From Butyribacter intestini (lineage in GTDB: Bacteria > Bacillota > Clostridia > Lachnospirales > Lachnospiraceae), in assembly GCA_001414325.1 (NCBI GenBank), contig LLKB01000001.1:186001-250000 (forward strand): a DNA stretch of 64,000 bases, written 5' to 3'. Of this stretch, positions 53,250-57,687 are shown piece by piece. Positions within the stretch are counted from its first letter, which is position 1, and the number at the start of each line of letters is the position of its first letter. Below the pieces are notes generated by a model. That model did no database searches. It was not told where the DNA came from and worked only from the letters and a program-made list of their open reading frames with translations. The position numbers were made by a program, and so were the translations under genes.

Positions 53250-53810
53250 TTAATCTATGGCATTGTTTAATATTTTTCTGAATGAAGGAGCAATAAAAGC
53301 GGCAACAATGGCTTTCACGGTATCGAGTGCGATAAATGGTACAAAGCCTGCGATAAATGCCGCTTTAAAATTGATTCCTCCGATTATCATTATCCATAAA
53401 GTTCCGAAAAGGTCTACAAATACTGCTGAAACAATAGCTGCTATTGTGAAATATATTCTGCTGTATGTGCGTTTACAGACGATTGGAAGTACAATTGCGA
53501 TAATTACAAAAGCGAAAGAGTATCCGCCGTACTGACCGAGCAGGTATCCGATTCCACCCTGACCGCCGATAAATACAGGTACACCGACAGCACCGAGTAA
53601 AAGCCATACAAGAGATATGAAGAATGACTGTTCAATGGCAAAGACAAGTCCGATAAGTGTCACTACAAAGTTAAGTGCCGTGATATGGCTTCCGTTTGGA
53701 AGAGGGATGCTTATGTATGCCGATACGCAGAGTACGGCGGCAAAAAGTGCCATAAGCACGAGATTCTGGGTTGTAAAAGTTGTTTTGTTCTTAGTTATTG
53801 AGTTATTCAT
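53250..53810 (-). CDS. bioY: Biotin transporter BioY (ECF S component)
   Basis: Membrane protein of 186 residues with about six helices and the BioY signature GQGGIGYLLGQYGGY and PNGSHITALNFVVTLIGL. It captures biotin and works with an ECF energising module (EcfA/T), not encoded here. The start at 53810 follows AGGAGG. Its promoter (53902-53930) is overlaid by a BirA-like operator shared with the divergent hotdog/thiolase/ligase genes. Confidence 0.93.
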   Translation of the reverse strand: MNNSITKNKTTFTTQNLVLMALFAAVLCVSAYISIPLPNGSHITALNFVVTLIGLVFAIEQSFFISLVWLLLGAVGVPVFIGGQGGIGYLLGQYGGYSFAFVIIAIVLPIVCKRTYSRIYFTIAAIVSAVFVDLFGTLWIMIIGGINFKAAFIAGFVPFIALDTVKAIVAAFIAPSFRKILNNAID

Positions 53811-53833
53811 TTGTTTCCTCCTAAATAAGTGTT

Positions 53834-53888
53834 ATTAAGTGTTTGCGAAACTATAATTAAAGATTATAATGGTTTCGCAAACATTTAA
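53834..53888. repeat. Family A palindromic repeat, minimal copy
   Basis: GTTTGCGAAACTATAAT and ATTATAATGGTTTCGCAAAC form an almost perfect palindrome of 54 bp in the bioY leader. Confidence 0.8.
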
Positions 53889-53901
53889 TTATTTATTTGC
53901 A

Positions 53902-53930
53902 AGTATATAGATGTAAAATTAGATTGTCAA
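53902..53930 (-). promoter_or_regulatory. bioY promoter
   Basis: On the minus strand TTGACA (53925-53930) and TATACT (53902-53907), spacer 17 bp. The -35 lies in the left BirA half-site. Confidence 0.85.
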
Positions 53931-53954
53931 CCTAAAAATTATATGGGTTGACAT
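53923..53954. promoter_or_regulatory. BirA-like biotin operator
   Basis: TTGTCAACC and GGTTGACAT form inverted half-sites 13 bp apart, close to the known BirA pattern (TTGTwAACC, about 14 bp, GGTTwACAA). Each half-site contains the -35 of one of two divergent promoters. Confidence 0.72.
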
Positions 53955-53976
53955 AAATAAGACAAAATTATATACT
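53948..53976 (+). promoter_or_regulatory. Promoter of the hotdog-thiolase-ligase genes
   Basis: TTGACA (53948-53953) and TATACT (53971-53976), spacer 17 bp. The -35 lies in the right BirA half-site. It is a mirror image of the bioY promoter. Confidence 0.85.
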
Positions 53977-54105
53977 TTTTTTGGAAGTTTTTGAGATACA
54001 ATTATGCATATCGACAAAATATATCTAAGGTGTGAATGGTAATAGTTGATATGCTACAGGGATAAAATATACAGAAATTAAATTTTTGCGGTTAAGAGGA
54101 TTTAT

Positions 54106-55047
54106 ATGGAACATGGATTGTTAAGAAGATATTTTGCAGCTTTTTCTAAAATCCCGGGTTTTTCAAACTGGGTCATAGCAAAAGCAAGTCTTGAATTAAA
54201 AAAGCCTGAAATAAAAAATATTTGTCTTAGGACAGAAATAGGACATTCAGAAATGGGAAATAAGTATGCTGAACCGGGATGTTCTGAAATATCTAATAAG
54301 TGTAATCAGACAGAAACAGGACATTCTGAAATGGATAATGGGGATTGTGATAGAAACAGGTATGATGCTGATAAAGTTAAGTGCCGTTTAAGTGACTGTA
54401 TATATTATAACGATGAGCTGGCAGCAGAAATTTTAAGGCAGAAAAAGAATTATGCACTTATGTCGGTTAGTGAGAGTTTTTTGGATGGTTCTAAAATTAG
54501 ACTTGATATACATCTTATAAAACTAATAAGCAGCAGTGAAAATACATTTAACTCACCAGCGGATAGGATAAAAGACAGCATTACGGATAGTGATGCAAAA
54601 GATAAAGAGCATATAAGTGACGAATACATGGGAGTGGAAAGTAACGGAAAAATTTGTGATATGCTTTTTGGAAATAAAGAGATAATTGATTTTGTGGAGA
54701 GCGTGGATGATAAAAATCCGATACACAGAAATGAGAAAGCAGTAGTACCCGGATTTCTTATTATGGAAAAATTTCTTGAAGATAAAGATTTGTTTGGAAA
54801 AGAAACAGATAAAGATATTTTTGACTTAAAAAAAAGACGAAAAGAAAATAAAACCACTTATGACAATAAAAAAATGGAGTCTGCATTTAAGATTGAGATA
54901 AAATATATTCTTCCGGTTTTTGCAGGTGAGAGGATATATTTGTATAGAGATGGAAATATGATTACGGGAATGGTGCAAAGAAGCGGTTGTGGCAGCGATG
55001 AGAACAAAGGAATTAAAGTGTTTGAGATAAAATGCAAGGGAGATTAA
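54106..55047 (+). CDS. Probable hotdog-fold (MaoC-like) protein with repeat insert
   Basis: Protein of 313 residues. The clearest likeness is NPIHRNEKAVVPGFLIMEKFL (about 204-224), which follows the MaoC/hotdog hydratase pattern N-P-I-H...A..PG, and a C-terminal IKYILPVFAGERIYLY strand pair. The N-terminus (about 1-35) is a separate block. Between lie polar, low-complexity stretches, including three degenerate 13-residue repeats (DNA 54232-54351). It could dehydrate or hydrate an acyl thioester in a biotin-related acyl pathway together with the next two genes. Family call moderate, activity unproven. Shine-Dalgarno AAGAGGATT. Confidence 0.55.
   Translation: MEHGLLRRYFAAFSKIPGFSNWVIAKASLELKKPEIKNICLRTEIGHSEMGNKYAEPGCSEISNKCNQTETGHSEMDNGDCDRNRYDADKVKCRLSDCIYYNDELAAEILRQKKNYALMSVSESFLDGSKIRLDIHLIKLISSSENTFNSPADRIKDSITDSDAKDKEHISDEYMGVESNGKICDMLFGNKEIIDFVESVDDKNPIHRNEKAVVPGFLIMEKFLEDKDLFGKETDKDIFDLKKRRKENKTTYDNKKMESAFKIEIKYILPVFAGERIYLYRDGNMITGMVQRSGCGSDENKGIKVFEIKCKGD
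54232..54351 (+). repeat. Degenerate 39-bp-type in-frame repeats
   Basis: TEIGHSEMGNKY, AEPGCSEISNKCNQ and TETGHSEMDNGD are three related units of 12-14 residues. The DNA keeps GACATTC-GAAATGG in units one and three. Confidence 0.7.
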
Positions 55048-55180
55048 AAAAGCAGGCATACAGATAGTGTGTTTAACGGATTTGAGTTAAAATGTAAGAG
55101 GAAGTTATAAAAATTTTAAATATAGGCTTCTGGGTGCTTCATAAGTGTGGAACACGGCAGAAACAGAGAATGGAGTATTT

Positions 55181-56314
55181 ATGGCATATATAATTGACGG
55201 GCTGAGGAGTTATATAGGGATTGAAAACAGTATGTATAGACATATATCTGCAGAGCAGCTTGGTGCAGGTGTGCTTGACAGGCTGGCAGAGAGGACGGGG
55301 ATAGATAAAGTTGACTGTATCATTGCCGGAAATGCTGTTGGTGCAGGAGGAAATATAGCAAGAGTCATGTCACTTTCGACGGTGTTTGGGGTGGAAACTC
55401 CGGCGTTTACGGTTGATATGCAATGTGGTTCATCTTTGGAGAGTATAGCACTTGCGGCGGCAAAGATAGATGCAGGACAGGCAGATATTGTTATTGCCGG
55501 AGGATTTGAGAGTAGTTCGACTGCACCGAAAAGAGCATATAATTCTAATCATCCGGACTATGCAGAGTTTGGAGATGAATGGTATAAGGTGGCGAAGTTT
55601 ATGCCGGGTACACACCGTCAGACTGCGATGTTAGAGGGTGCGGAACTTACGGCGGCAGACGAAAAAATATCACGGGAAGAAATGAATGAATGGATACTTA
55701 GAAGCCACAGGCTTGCAAAAGAAGCAAGAGATAAAGGTGTTTTAAAGGACATTGTCGTGAGTGTGACAGACGGATGTGATAAAGATGAGGGAATCCGTGA
55801 CAGGATGAGTGAGAAACTGCTGAACAGACTGCCAGCCATACTTGAAAATGGAAATATAATAACGGCAGGAAATGCGTGTCTTACAAATGACGGTGCGGCT
55901 TTTGTGATTTTGTGCTCGGAAAAGTATGTCAGGGAAAATAATTGTGAAATCAAGGGAGAATTTATCGATATTGCGGAGACAGGAGGAACACCTGATCGGA
56001 GTCCTAAGTCATGTATAGCCGCAATAGAGAAAATTCTTAAAAGAAACAGCTTAAGTCCGCAGGATATTGATGTTTATGAATGTAATGAAGCATTTGCCGT
56101 TATAGATGTATTGTTTGCAAGGACTTTTCCGGAGCAGGTATCAAAATATAATGTTTTCGGTGGTGCACTTGCCTACGGTCATCCCTATGGAGCTTCAGGA
56201 GCGATTATAACACTTCATGCATTAAGGGCATTAGAGTTAAAAGGCGGCGGATATGCCGTGTGTGGTATTGCGGCGGCTGGCGGGGTAGGAAGTGCGATAT
56301 TATTGAAAAAATAG
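55181..56314 (+). CDS. Thiolase-family protein (YhfS-like acyl-CoA acetyltransferase)
   Basis: Thiolase of 377 residues. The nucleophile Cys is in VDMQCGSSLESIALAA (near residue 84); the C-terminal NEAFA, the His of GGALAYGHPYGASGA and the second Cys of YAVCGIAAAGGVG complete the catalytic set. It can make or cleave a 3-ketoacyl-CoA. Position behind a BirA-like operator and beside an acyl-CoA ligase matches yhfS of Bacillus (recalled, not searched). ATG 55181 has GAATGGAG. The 130-bp gap before it contains a partial copy (55079-55111) of the preceding gene's end. Confidence 0.88.
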   Translation: MAYIIDGLRSYIGIENSMYRHISAEQLGAGVLDRLAERTGIDKVDCIIAGNAVGAGGNIARVMSLSTVFGVETPAFTVDMQCGSSLESIALAAAKIDAGQADIVIAGGFESSSTAPKRAYNSNHPDYAEFGDEWYKVAKFMPGTHRQTAMLEGAELTAADEKISREEMNEWILRSHRLAKEARDKGVLKDIVVSVTDGCDKDEGIRDRMSEKLLNRLPAILENGNIITAGNACLTNDGAAFVILCSEKYVRENNCEIKGEFIDIAETGGTPDRSPKSCIAAIEKILKRNSLSPQDIDVYECNEAFAVIDVLFARTFPEQVSKYNVFGGALAYGHPYGASGAIITLHALRALELKGGGYAVCGIAAAGGVGSAILLKK

Positions 56315-56373
56315 GGGATTGTGGAAACCAGACTTATATAAGTTATGATAGTTTAAAGGACAGGGGAAAGAAA

Positions 56374-57687
56374 ATGAATTATTATAAGATGCTATGTGAA
56401 AAAGATGAAAATAAACTTGCTTTTGTAGAGGACGGAATTCCATATACATATGAAGAACTTGAAAAAGCGGCAGATGAATATGCAGAAAAGATAAAAATAA
56501 ATGCGGATGGAAATTATGGAACCGCAGTTAAAGGAATGTGGCAAAAACTTGGACAGTGCACGGAGTCCGGACGAAAAGTTTATATGATAAAAAGTGAGTC
56601 TTTTTTGGAACAGCTTATATTATTTATTGCGTGCAATAAAAATGGAGATATACCGATGATAGTCCAAAAAGATATGACACAACTGCCTGAAATCAATGAG
56701 ATACCGGATGAGGTCTGTATGGCGGTAATGACATCGGGGACGACAGGCGTGCCAAAGATACTTTACAGAACATATGAGAGCTGGGCTGATTTCTTTCCTA
56801 TACAAAATGAGATATTCGGGATTGGTGAAAACAGCAGATTGTTTGTGCAGGGAAGTCTTGCTTTTACGGGCAATCTAAATCTTGTGATGGCACAGCTATA
56901 TGCAGGGGCAGTTACCATTGTGGAAAACAGGTTTAATCCAAAACAGTGGGAAAAGACCATAAAACAGTGGGAAGCAGACACTATCTATCTTATTCCATCA
57001 AAATTAATGTGCATACCGGAGTGTTTTAAGGAGAAGAATGTTAATATAAAAATGATATTGTCTGGTTCGCAGAGTCTGGGAAGAAAAGATGCAGAAAGTT
57101 TAAAAAAGATATTTCCAGATACGAAAGTTATTTTGTATTATGGTGCAAGCGAGTTGAATTATATATCATATGTAACGGATGAGAATATGACGGAAAAGAG
57201 AAATCTTATAGGTAAGCCGTTTCCGAAAGTTGATGTCAGCGTAAAAGAAGGGGAGATATATGTCACAAATGATTTTCATGTGTATGGAGTGAAATGTCCG
57301 TTTACGCTTAAAGACAGAGGATATATGGATGATTGTGGCAATCTGTATTTTGACGGGCGTTCAGATGATATAGTGGGGATAAGGGGCAGGAAAGTTTCAA
57401 AAGCGAAGATAGAAGCGGCGGTGAGCGAAAAAGAGGAAATAAGCGAGGCTGTTGTGATATTGGAAAAGGACAGAGATATACTCACGCTTTATGTGGCACT
57501 TAAAGAGAGTGTAAAAGGTAAATATTTAAAAAATGATAAGAAACGGGATGAGTTAGAGAAAGAAATATATGCTTTTTTGCGAAAAAAACTTGCCCACTTT
57601 GAGATGCCGAGAAGAATAATTATTCTCGATGATATGCCGCACAATAAGGACACGGGAAAGATTGATAAAAAACAGTTATTAAAATAA
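56374..57687 (+). CDS. AMP-dependent acyl-CoA synthetase/ligase (YhfT-like)
   Basis: Adenylate-forming enzyme of 437 residues, short for the family. P-loop MTSGTTGVPKILYR, A5 YYGASELNYISYV, A7/A8 LKDRGYMDDCGNLYFDGRSDDIVGIRGRKVSKAKIE and the C-terminal lysine in NKDTGKIDKKQ are present. It should activate a carboxylic acid to an acyl-CoA. It starts 59 bp after the thiolase gene with GGACAGGGGAAAG. With the thiolase and bioY it recalls the BirA-regulated yhfUTS genes of Bacillus subtilis, of unknown role but thought to link to biotin or pimelate. Confidence 0.9.
   Translation: MNYYKMLCEKDENKLAFVEDGIPYTYEELEKAADEYAEKIKINADGNYGTAVKGMWQKLGQCTESGRKVYMIKSESFLEQLILFIACNKNGDIPMIVQKDMTQLPEINEIPDEVCMAVMTSGTTGVPKILYRTYESWADFFPIQNEIFGIGENSRLFVQGSLAFTGNLNLVMAQLYAGAVTIVENRFNPKQWEKTIKQWEADTIYLIPSKLMCIPECFKEKNVNIKMILSGSQSLGRKDAESLKKIFPDTKVILYYGASELNYISYVTDENMTEKRNLIGKPFPKVDVSVKEGEIYVTNDFHVYGVKCPFTLKDRGYMDDCGNLYFDGRSDDIVGIRGRKVSKAKIEAAVSEKEEISEAVVILEKDRDILTLYVALKESVKGKYLKNDKKRDELEKEIYAFLRKKLAHFEMPRRIIILDDMPHNKDTGKIDKKQLLK

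Follow-up and report, generated by a model that had tools for sequence, protein, structure and literature searches.

Known BirA-controlled ligase-thiolase operons and a related locus

The control of acyl-CoA ligase-thiolase operons by the biotin repressor BirA is already known from Bacillus subtilis, where yhfUTS belongs to the BirA regulon and BirA binding was shown by electrophoretic mobility shift assay (PMC4016012), and from Staphylococcus aureus, where the ligase-thiolase pair yhfS-yhfT is BirA-controlled (PMC6391492). In the available text of these reports, yhfS and yhfT carry putative enzyme names and no reaction is given (PMC4016012, PMC6391492). Here we describe a related locus of Butyribacter intestini, located at positions 53250-57687 of a 64,000-nucleotide stretch of its genome (the window), in which bioY is divergent from an operon encoding a probable hotdog protein, a thiolase-fold enzyme and an acyl-CoA ligase (together, the module). 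Our tentative reading, to which we give a probability of roughly 0.36, is that this is a BirA-repressed biotin-acquisition module that elongates vitamers with a shortened side chain to biotin. For the B. subtilis operon, we take yhfT to be the ligase and yhfS the thiolase, which agrees with the Staphylococcus pair in PMC6391492.

The window locus is similar to yhfUTS in having a bioY paralogue, an acyl-CoA ligase and a thiolase homologue at a BirA-type site. It differs in being divergent, in containing the hotdog gene, and in scoring far below the cut-offs of curated NCBIfam equivalogs: 233.7 of 498 bits for the thiolase against PRK06690 and 139 of 518 bits for the ligase against PRK07638, presumably the models of the YhfS thiolase and the YhfT ligase, respectively. 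The window thiolase passes the subfamily model TIGR01930 (347 against a cut-off of 240.55). The resemblance to yhfS and yhfT proposed in an earlier, sequence-only reading of the window is supported indirectly, by gene organization, since Bacilli loci with the order bioY-ligase-thiolase exist and several have BirA sites, and is not supported by the equivalog scores.

In Staphylococcus, vraC and vraP come after vraA-vraB (PMC10620731), and we infer that yhfS-yhfT and vraA-vraB are the same operon. Three loci of our collection (L257-L259; loci carry L numbers and genomes G numbers below) share the vraA-vraB-vraC-vraP order and a hotdog motif in the last gene, and differ from the window in that bioY is separate and that no BirA-type site was found upstream of them or of L255. 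Within these Staphylococcal-type loci (L257:6070-6731, L258:4471-5153, L259:4445-5058) the ligase and thiolase are followed by two small proteins, the first of which has no Pfam match, while the last contains D.NPIH and matches the hotdog profile. VraC and VraP may form a two-part dehydratase.

Two further systems are relevant. Genome surveys have described BioB-only salvage: auxotrophs of the BioB-only (A1) pattern have BirA and BioB without BioF and BioD and were read as salvaging dethiobiotin (PMC6593275). The host likewise has bioB and birA and no bioF or bioD match; the difference is that the module extends to genomes without a bioB match, and that the available text of PMC6593275 makes no mention of a ligase, thiolase or hotdog protein. 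In the BioZ route, a FabH-like condensing enzyme was recruited to biotin metabolism, where it produces 3-ketopimeloyl-acyl carrier protein (PMC11089781). A condensing enzyme is shared with the window locus, but the window enzyme is of the thiolase type and the host has no bioF match. No description of a ligase-thiolase-hotdog-reductase set as a biotin pathway was found in the literature searched, subscription papers and preprints lying outside that search; as far as searched, the recurrent dehydratase, the reductases, the missing catalytic Cys and the bioB-containing operon described below have not been reported jointly either.

A putative BirA operator between bioY and the enzyme operon

The BirA-type operator, TTGTCAACC-N13-GGTTGACAT, is located at 53924-53954 and is assigned to neither strand. 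In a scan of the window allowing up to three mismatches, this place alone matched (the two matches obtained are the same place on both strands), whereas shuffled window DNA gives 0.06 matches on average. No other exact match, and no other site with at most one mismatch, was found in the 3.6 Mb host genome. Sites with three mismatches are at background level in the host genome, 13 being found against 15 for a reversed control pattern, and because of this a site upstream of host bioB (C1:1432201, CCGTCAACC-N13-GGTTGACAT), which keeps the symmetric core GTCAACC-N13-GGTTGAC, is at most suggestive.

Two outward-facing promoter-like sites, both TTGACA-17-TATACT (11/12), overlap the operator, one at 53948-53976 on the plus strand for the enzyme operon and the other at 53902-53930 on the minus strand for bioY, and the -35 box of each falls in an operator half-site. 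Such sites are common here, as the same 551-base stretch contains seven of them against a shuffle mean of 3.1. Given the position of the -35 boxes inside the half-sites, a single bound repressor dimer could close both promoters. The host encodes a BirA (L209:1252-2253) with the domains HTH_11 (59.7 bits), BPL and BPL_C.

The conservation of the operator was assessed in 59 module loci, over 400 bp upstream of each and with resampled upstream DNA as the background. A BirA-type site with at most three mismatches is present in 39 loci (0.70 expected) and one with at most two mismatches in 30 loci (0.00 expected). All 18 genus loci in the test have a site with at most two mismatches, the window being one of them and not an independent case because both the window and known BirA boxes guided the choice of consensus. 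Near-duplicates (L003-L005, L007-L009, L011, L014), genus loci at contig ends (L097, L098, L100) and L017, L261 and L262 were left out, and the bioY starts of L088 and L091 were moved downstream because the called open reading frames (ORFs) overran the operator. The operator lying across two mirror-image promoters, as seen in the sequence-only reading, is borne out. With its conservation and a host BirA containing a helix-turn-helix domain, the control of bioY and the enzyme operon by BirA appears well supported on sequence grounds. In one locus (L244:8309-9420), birA itself is divergent from bioY with a perfect BirA-type site between them, so that birA may be autoregulated in this locus.

Gene content and recurrence of the module

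In the window, bioY (53250-53810, minus strand; Pfam BioY, 103 bits) is predicted to encode an S-component for biotin or a biotin vitamer. The enzyme operon on the plus strand consists of the gene for a probable hotdog (MaoC-like) dehydratase/hydratase of 313 aa with a long insert (54106-55047), assigned from relatives and a family profile; that for a thiolase-fold enzyme (55145-56314; Pfam Thiolase_N/C); and that for a short acyl-CoA ligase of 437 aa (56374-57687; Pfam AMP-binding). Judged from relatives, the probable start codon of the thiolase is the ATG at 55181, and that of the ligase is at 56374 rather than 56260. The ligase motifs SG[TS]T and YYGxSE and a C-terminal Lys are conserved across seven aligned relatives. 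In a single genome (L111:3608-5040), the ligase is split over two reading frames.

When a profile of the thiolase (A2) was applied to the family sample, module thiolases scored at least 463 bits and ordinary ones at most 225 bits, and by this gap 3 of 150 genomes contain a module thiolase. At an E value of 1e-85, it is found in 15 of 398 genomes of the phylum sample and in 21 of 28 genomes of the genus. Among the 21 genus loci, some of which are cut by contig ends, bioY was matched in 18, the ligase in 19 and the hotdog in 12; the corresponding numbers for the 16 family and phylum loci (L104-L119) are 13, 15 and 13. The linkage of the four genes recurs in several families and gene orders: bioY is divergent from the enzyme genes in the genus, Anaerovibrio has bioY-ligase-hotdog-thiolase, other relatives have hotdog-bioY-thiolase-ligase, and Clostridioides difficile has bioY-thiolase-ligase. 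The gene set is shared by various Gram-positive and related bacteria, in some of which no biotin-making gene was found. The hotdog gene, regarded earlier as an addition made here, is a real member of the set and recurs in the gene sets of relatives, so that a novelty local to the window can be rejected.

A tree of 56 BioY proteins, including six non-module ones from outside the genus, places all module BioYs in two groups, one of 12 rows (support 98/97) and one of 38 rows (87/90), with the window protein among the module-linked BioYs of the genus. None of the six falls inside either group, and three genomes (G343, G377, G440) carry both kinds, one BioY inside and one outside the module groups. 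Genus BioYs from two genomes without the thiolase (L154, L172) nest among the module ones, and the tree leaves open whether the two groups join to the exclusion of all six outsiders. A dedicated module transporter is possible, but co-inheritance would give the same tree.

Active sites and partner enzymes

The nucleophilic Cys is kept in all 74 rows of module-type thiolases, and the Glu of NEAF and the His of GHP in all 72 rows with letters at these positions (two are gaps). The second catalytic Cys (CxG) is present in none of 64 distinct module-type thiolases (41 have Ala and 23 Gly; one more has a gap), compared to 27 of 27 ordinary thiolases in the same alignment, a 28th (L028) being excluded by the motif filter. 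For this count, eight of the 74 rows were dropped (six repeat fetches, the duplicate L119 row and L261) and L009 and L106 were taken as one sequence; the rows kept include loci without an adjacent bioY or an adjacent ligase. L261, the only non-reference row with the second Cys, has no adjacent ligase or bioY and was set aside as a generic thiolase. The window thiolase has the nucleophile (Cys94), NEAF and GHP, Ala in place of the second catalytic Cys (residue 376 of the ORF), and a Cys three residues before that column. In thiolases, the second Cys is the base that takes the substrate proton (PMC3406046; PMC4595758). Its loss makes plain acetyl-CoA thiolase chemistry doubtful, and the condensation or cleavage step that the sequence-only reading placed between activation and dehydration therefore carries a caveat. 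A nucleophile with His and Asn and without the base resembles the decarboxylating FabH-type enzymes, and a malonyl donor or another acceptor is therefore possible.

The 313-aa window protein has no Pfam match, and its assignment as a hotdog protein comes from its relatives. Even in six of these, Pfam MaoC scores 13.8-15.3 of 27 bits in three and gives no match in the other three. The family profile matches the solved structures of 3-hydroxyacyl-thioester dehydratase 2 (HTD2; 3ir3, E 2.4e-4) and R-specific enoyl-CoA hydratase (1iq6, E 3.5e-4), with which the window protein shares the D-N-H motif; the family differs from them in falling below the Pfam MaoC cut-off and in its long divergent N-terminal half. 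The motif, D-x-N-x-[IL]-H, is found in the window (as D-x-N-P-I-H at about 54709-54726) and in all 34 hotdog rows listed, which represent 31 distinct loci. The structure model of the Anaerovibrio member (predicted local distance difference test, pLDDT, 82.9) matches HtdX, itaconyl-CoA hydratase and MaoC-like dehydratases, and from rank 4 on also acyl thioesterases, which have the same fold; the model of the window protein itself reaches a pLDDT of only 39.8. From motif, profile and model, a dehydratase/hydratase role is likely. The insert of the window protein, absent from compact relatives, contains two near-copies, TEIGHSEM and TETGHSEM (54235-54345).

In some relatives the module is accompanied by further enzymes. 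A trans-2-enoyl-CoA reductase is encoded 3' of the ligase on the same strand in genus loci L090, L094, L100 and L102 (by Pfam in the first two). L115 has an Oxidored_FMN enzyme beside the ligase on the same strand and, across a BirA-type site, a divergent short-chain dehydrogenase/reductase (SDR), and in L118 a FabA-like protein (16.8 bits against a cut-off of 23) overlaps the end of the ligase. In Bacilli, L119, L243, L244 and L245 have a pair of FAS1_DH-like and MaoC-like proteins plus an SDR, the order in L243 and L244 being site-bioY-ligase-thiolase-FAS1_DH-like-MaoC-like-SDR; an SDR also lies beside the modules of L246, L247, L248 and L252. L253 (with a perfect site) and L256 (without a site) start with a protein of the NMO family, to which FabK belongs. 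The motif Asp and His are kept in all nine Bacilli dehydratase proteins and the Asn in six. That various protein families occupy the slots of dehydration, ketoreduction and enoyl reduction suggests a shared need for an elongation cycle, and the partner enzymes of these relatives would suit one that adds two carbons.

Biotin genes in the host and its relatives

The absence of biotin-synthesis genes from the window, noted earlier, extends for two of them to the whole host genome: a single bioB is located far from the window (C1:1432621), and bioF and bioD gave no match (bioA, bioW and bioC were not searched for in the host genome). With birA present, the host shows the BioB-only (A1) pattern, bioA being outside this test. 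The bioF and bioD search covered 80 genomes, namely 37 with the module, 7 other genus members, 34 bioB-bearing controls and 2 that stand behind loci. Within the genus, neither bioF (E 1e-50) nor bioD was matched in any of the 28 genomes, the completeness of which is 60-99.6%. In 6 of the 21 module genomes of the genus, bioB lies inside the divergent locus, before the hotdog or the thiolase gene. In the phylum sample, 12 of the 15 genomes with the module have bioB, compared to 93 of the 383 without it (p 1.5e-5 by Fisher's test, uncorrected for kinship).

The module occurs together with bioF and bioD over the cut-off in four genomes (G377, G440, G511, G527), all of which have BioW at the bioF locus. 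Six others (G000, G282, G310, G355, G459, G494) have the module and bioB with no bioF or bioD match, G343 has the module and bioB with all bioF matches below the cut-off, and five, which are 97-99% complete (G477, G531, G547, G559, G570), have the module with no match to bioB, bioF or bioD. Among bioB-bearing genomes, those without an over-cut-off bioF and without bioD make up 7 of 12 module genomes of the phylum sample and 11 of 34 chosen controls; the BioB-only pattern was not shown to be a mark of the module. Since the module is found in settings with and without bio genes, the supply of pimeloyl-CoA or dethiobiotin alone is an unlikely function. What would fit all settings is a function that produces biotin, one that spares it, or one that lies outside biotin chemistry. 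Because the set is also present in genomes without a match to bioB, bioF or bioD, what it usefully makes may be biotin, which would help genomes with bioF, bioD and bioW, those with bioB but no bioF or bioD match, and those with none of the three matched. The salvage of a biotin precursor, also suggested in the sequence-only reading, fits these data better than pimeloyl-CoA synthesis, if unproven.

Two observations concern bioW. In three module genomes, a small hydrophobic protein is encoded before it (L144:7236-7715, L148:8136-8636, L150:2073-2579); the one examined has no NCBIfam match, and the protein could be a pimelate transport component. At L146:9136-11049, a 637-aa frame matches both BioW and BioF and is an apparent fusion.

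Possible functions of the module

In the proposed elongation of shortened vitamers, biotin scarcity would release BirA from the operator and so turn on both bioY and the enzyme operon, a step for which the sequence evidence is strong. BioY would import biotin and biotin-like acids, the ligase would form the CoA thioester, and the thiolase-fold enzyme, working without the second Cys, would add a two-carbon unit. A ketoreductase would then reduce the 3-keto group, the MaoC-like hotdog would remove water and an enoyl reductase would complete one elongation cycle. The likely substrates would be bisnorbiotin, giving biotin directly, or bisnor-dethiobiotin ahead of BioB, through which a vitamer lacking sulfur would become biotin. 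In human serum, about half of the avidin-binding material was reported to be something other than biotin (PMC10670868), which makes bisnorbiotin a natural candidate.

Several points weigh against this proposal. No BirA-type site with at most three mismatches was found in 20 of the 59 module loci (L013, L015, L104, L107, L109-L111, L118, L119 and 11 of 18 Bacilli loci), L110 and L111 having a three-mismatch site inside the gene set, before bioY. The loss of the base Cys means that a malonyl donor or other chemistry is needed. The hotdog was not matched beside the thiolase in C. difficile, in G440 and in 9 of 21 genus loci (L088, L090, L091, L094, L098, L100-L103, of which L098 and L100 start near a contig end), and the motif Asn is missing from three of the nine Bacilli dehydratase halves. 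No reductase adjoins the window operon, and the same is true for most modules. The enrichment of bioB seen in the phylum sample is not clear within the genus, where 11 of the 21 genomes with the module have bioB and so do 3 of the 7 that lack it. The BioY comparison includes just six non-module BioYs from outside the genus. Finally, whereas the operator, promoter-like sites, BirA, gene content, recurrence and active-site residues are read from sequence, reaction direction, substrate, the reductases serving in the host and release from the thioester are what we infer, and for substrate and release this counts against the proposal. The wider claim that BirA-controlled repair of vitamers with shortened side chains, via a dedicated BioY, operates in many bacterial families and that yhfS and yhfT belong to it is doubtful.

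Of the alternatives, the one that survives best, though unlikely, is that these are general genes for fatty acid or membrane adjustment, placed under BirA since lipid synthesis needs biotin and involving no vitamer chemistry. The ligase and thiolase are of generic families, the Staphylococcal-type loci (L255, L257-L259) have the set without an adjacent bioY or an upstream site, and vraC and vraP were reported to affect the cell wall (PMC10620731); the recurrent association of the set with bioY across several families, and with bioB within the genus, argues against this reading. Rather improbable is the opposite direction, in which hydration and cleavage would shorten or detoxify acids resembling biotin, such as longer-chain or unsaturated analogues. 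The steroid hydratase Shy has a MaoC-type hotdog. Its complex with the thiolase-like aldolase Sal cleaves side chains (PMC12329534), and no enoyl reductase was matched beside most Bacilli modules, but Sal has Gly where the module enzymes keep the nucleophilic Cys (PMC12329534), the trans-2-enoyl-CoA reductase found in four loci of the genus speaks for reduction, and the degradation of biotin-like acids under biotin scarcity makes little sense.

There is a small chance that the module spares biotin, building acyl chains at low biotin from acetyl-CoA without acetyl-CoA carboxylase (reverse beta-oxidation), as in Euglena mitochondria, where a trans-2-enoyl-CoA reductase takes part (PMC6334954). 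This would explain the presence of the module in genomes with and without bio genes, and the ligase, thiolase and dehydratase with an SDR or trans-2-enoyl-CoA reductase are at hand in some loci; however, the Cys that activates acetyl-CoA is the very residue lost from all 64 distinct module-type thiolases, and the bioB linkage is not predicted. An unrecognised route to pimeloyl-CoA, raised by the sequence-only reading, is chemically possible with a ligase, condensation and dehydration and is in line with the presence of bioB in 12 of the 15 phylum-sample genomes with the module, but it is very improbable, and is rejected for the host, as none of the 28 genus genomes (some of them incomplete) gave a match to bioF or bioD and the four module genomes with both genes carry BioW.

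The analysis narrows the chemistry to be considered for the ligase-thiolase pair, which is often accompanied by a dehydratase and sometimes by a ketoreductase or enoyl reductase, and whose thiolase is devoid of a defining catalytic Cys. If the elongation of shortened vitamers is confirmed, the orphan genes yhfS and yhfT would be placed in a biotin repair pathway, and biotin auxotrophs would gain, through salvage, a source of the vitamin that nutrition models may ignore.

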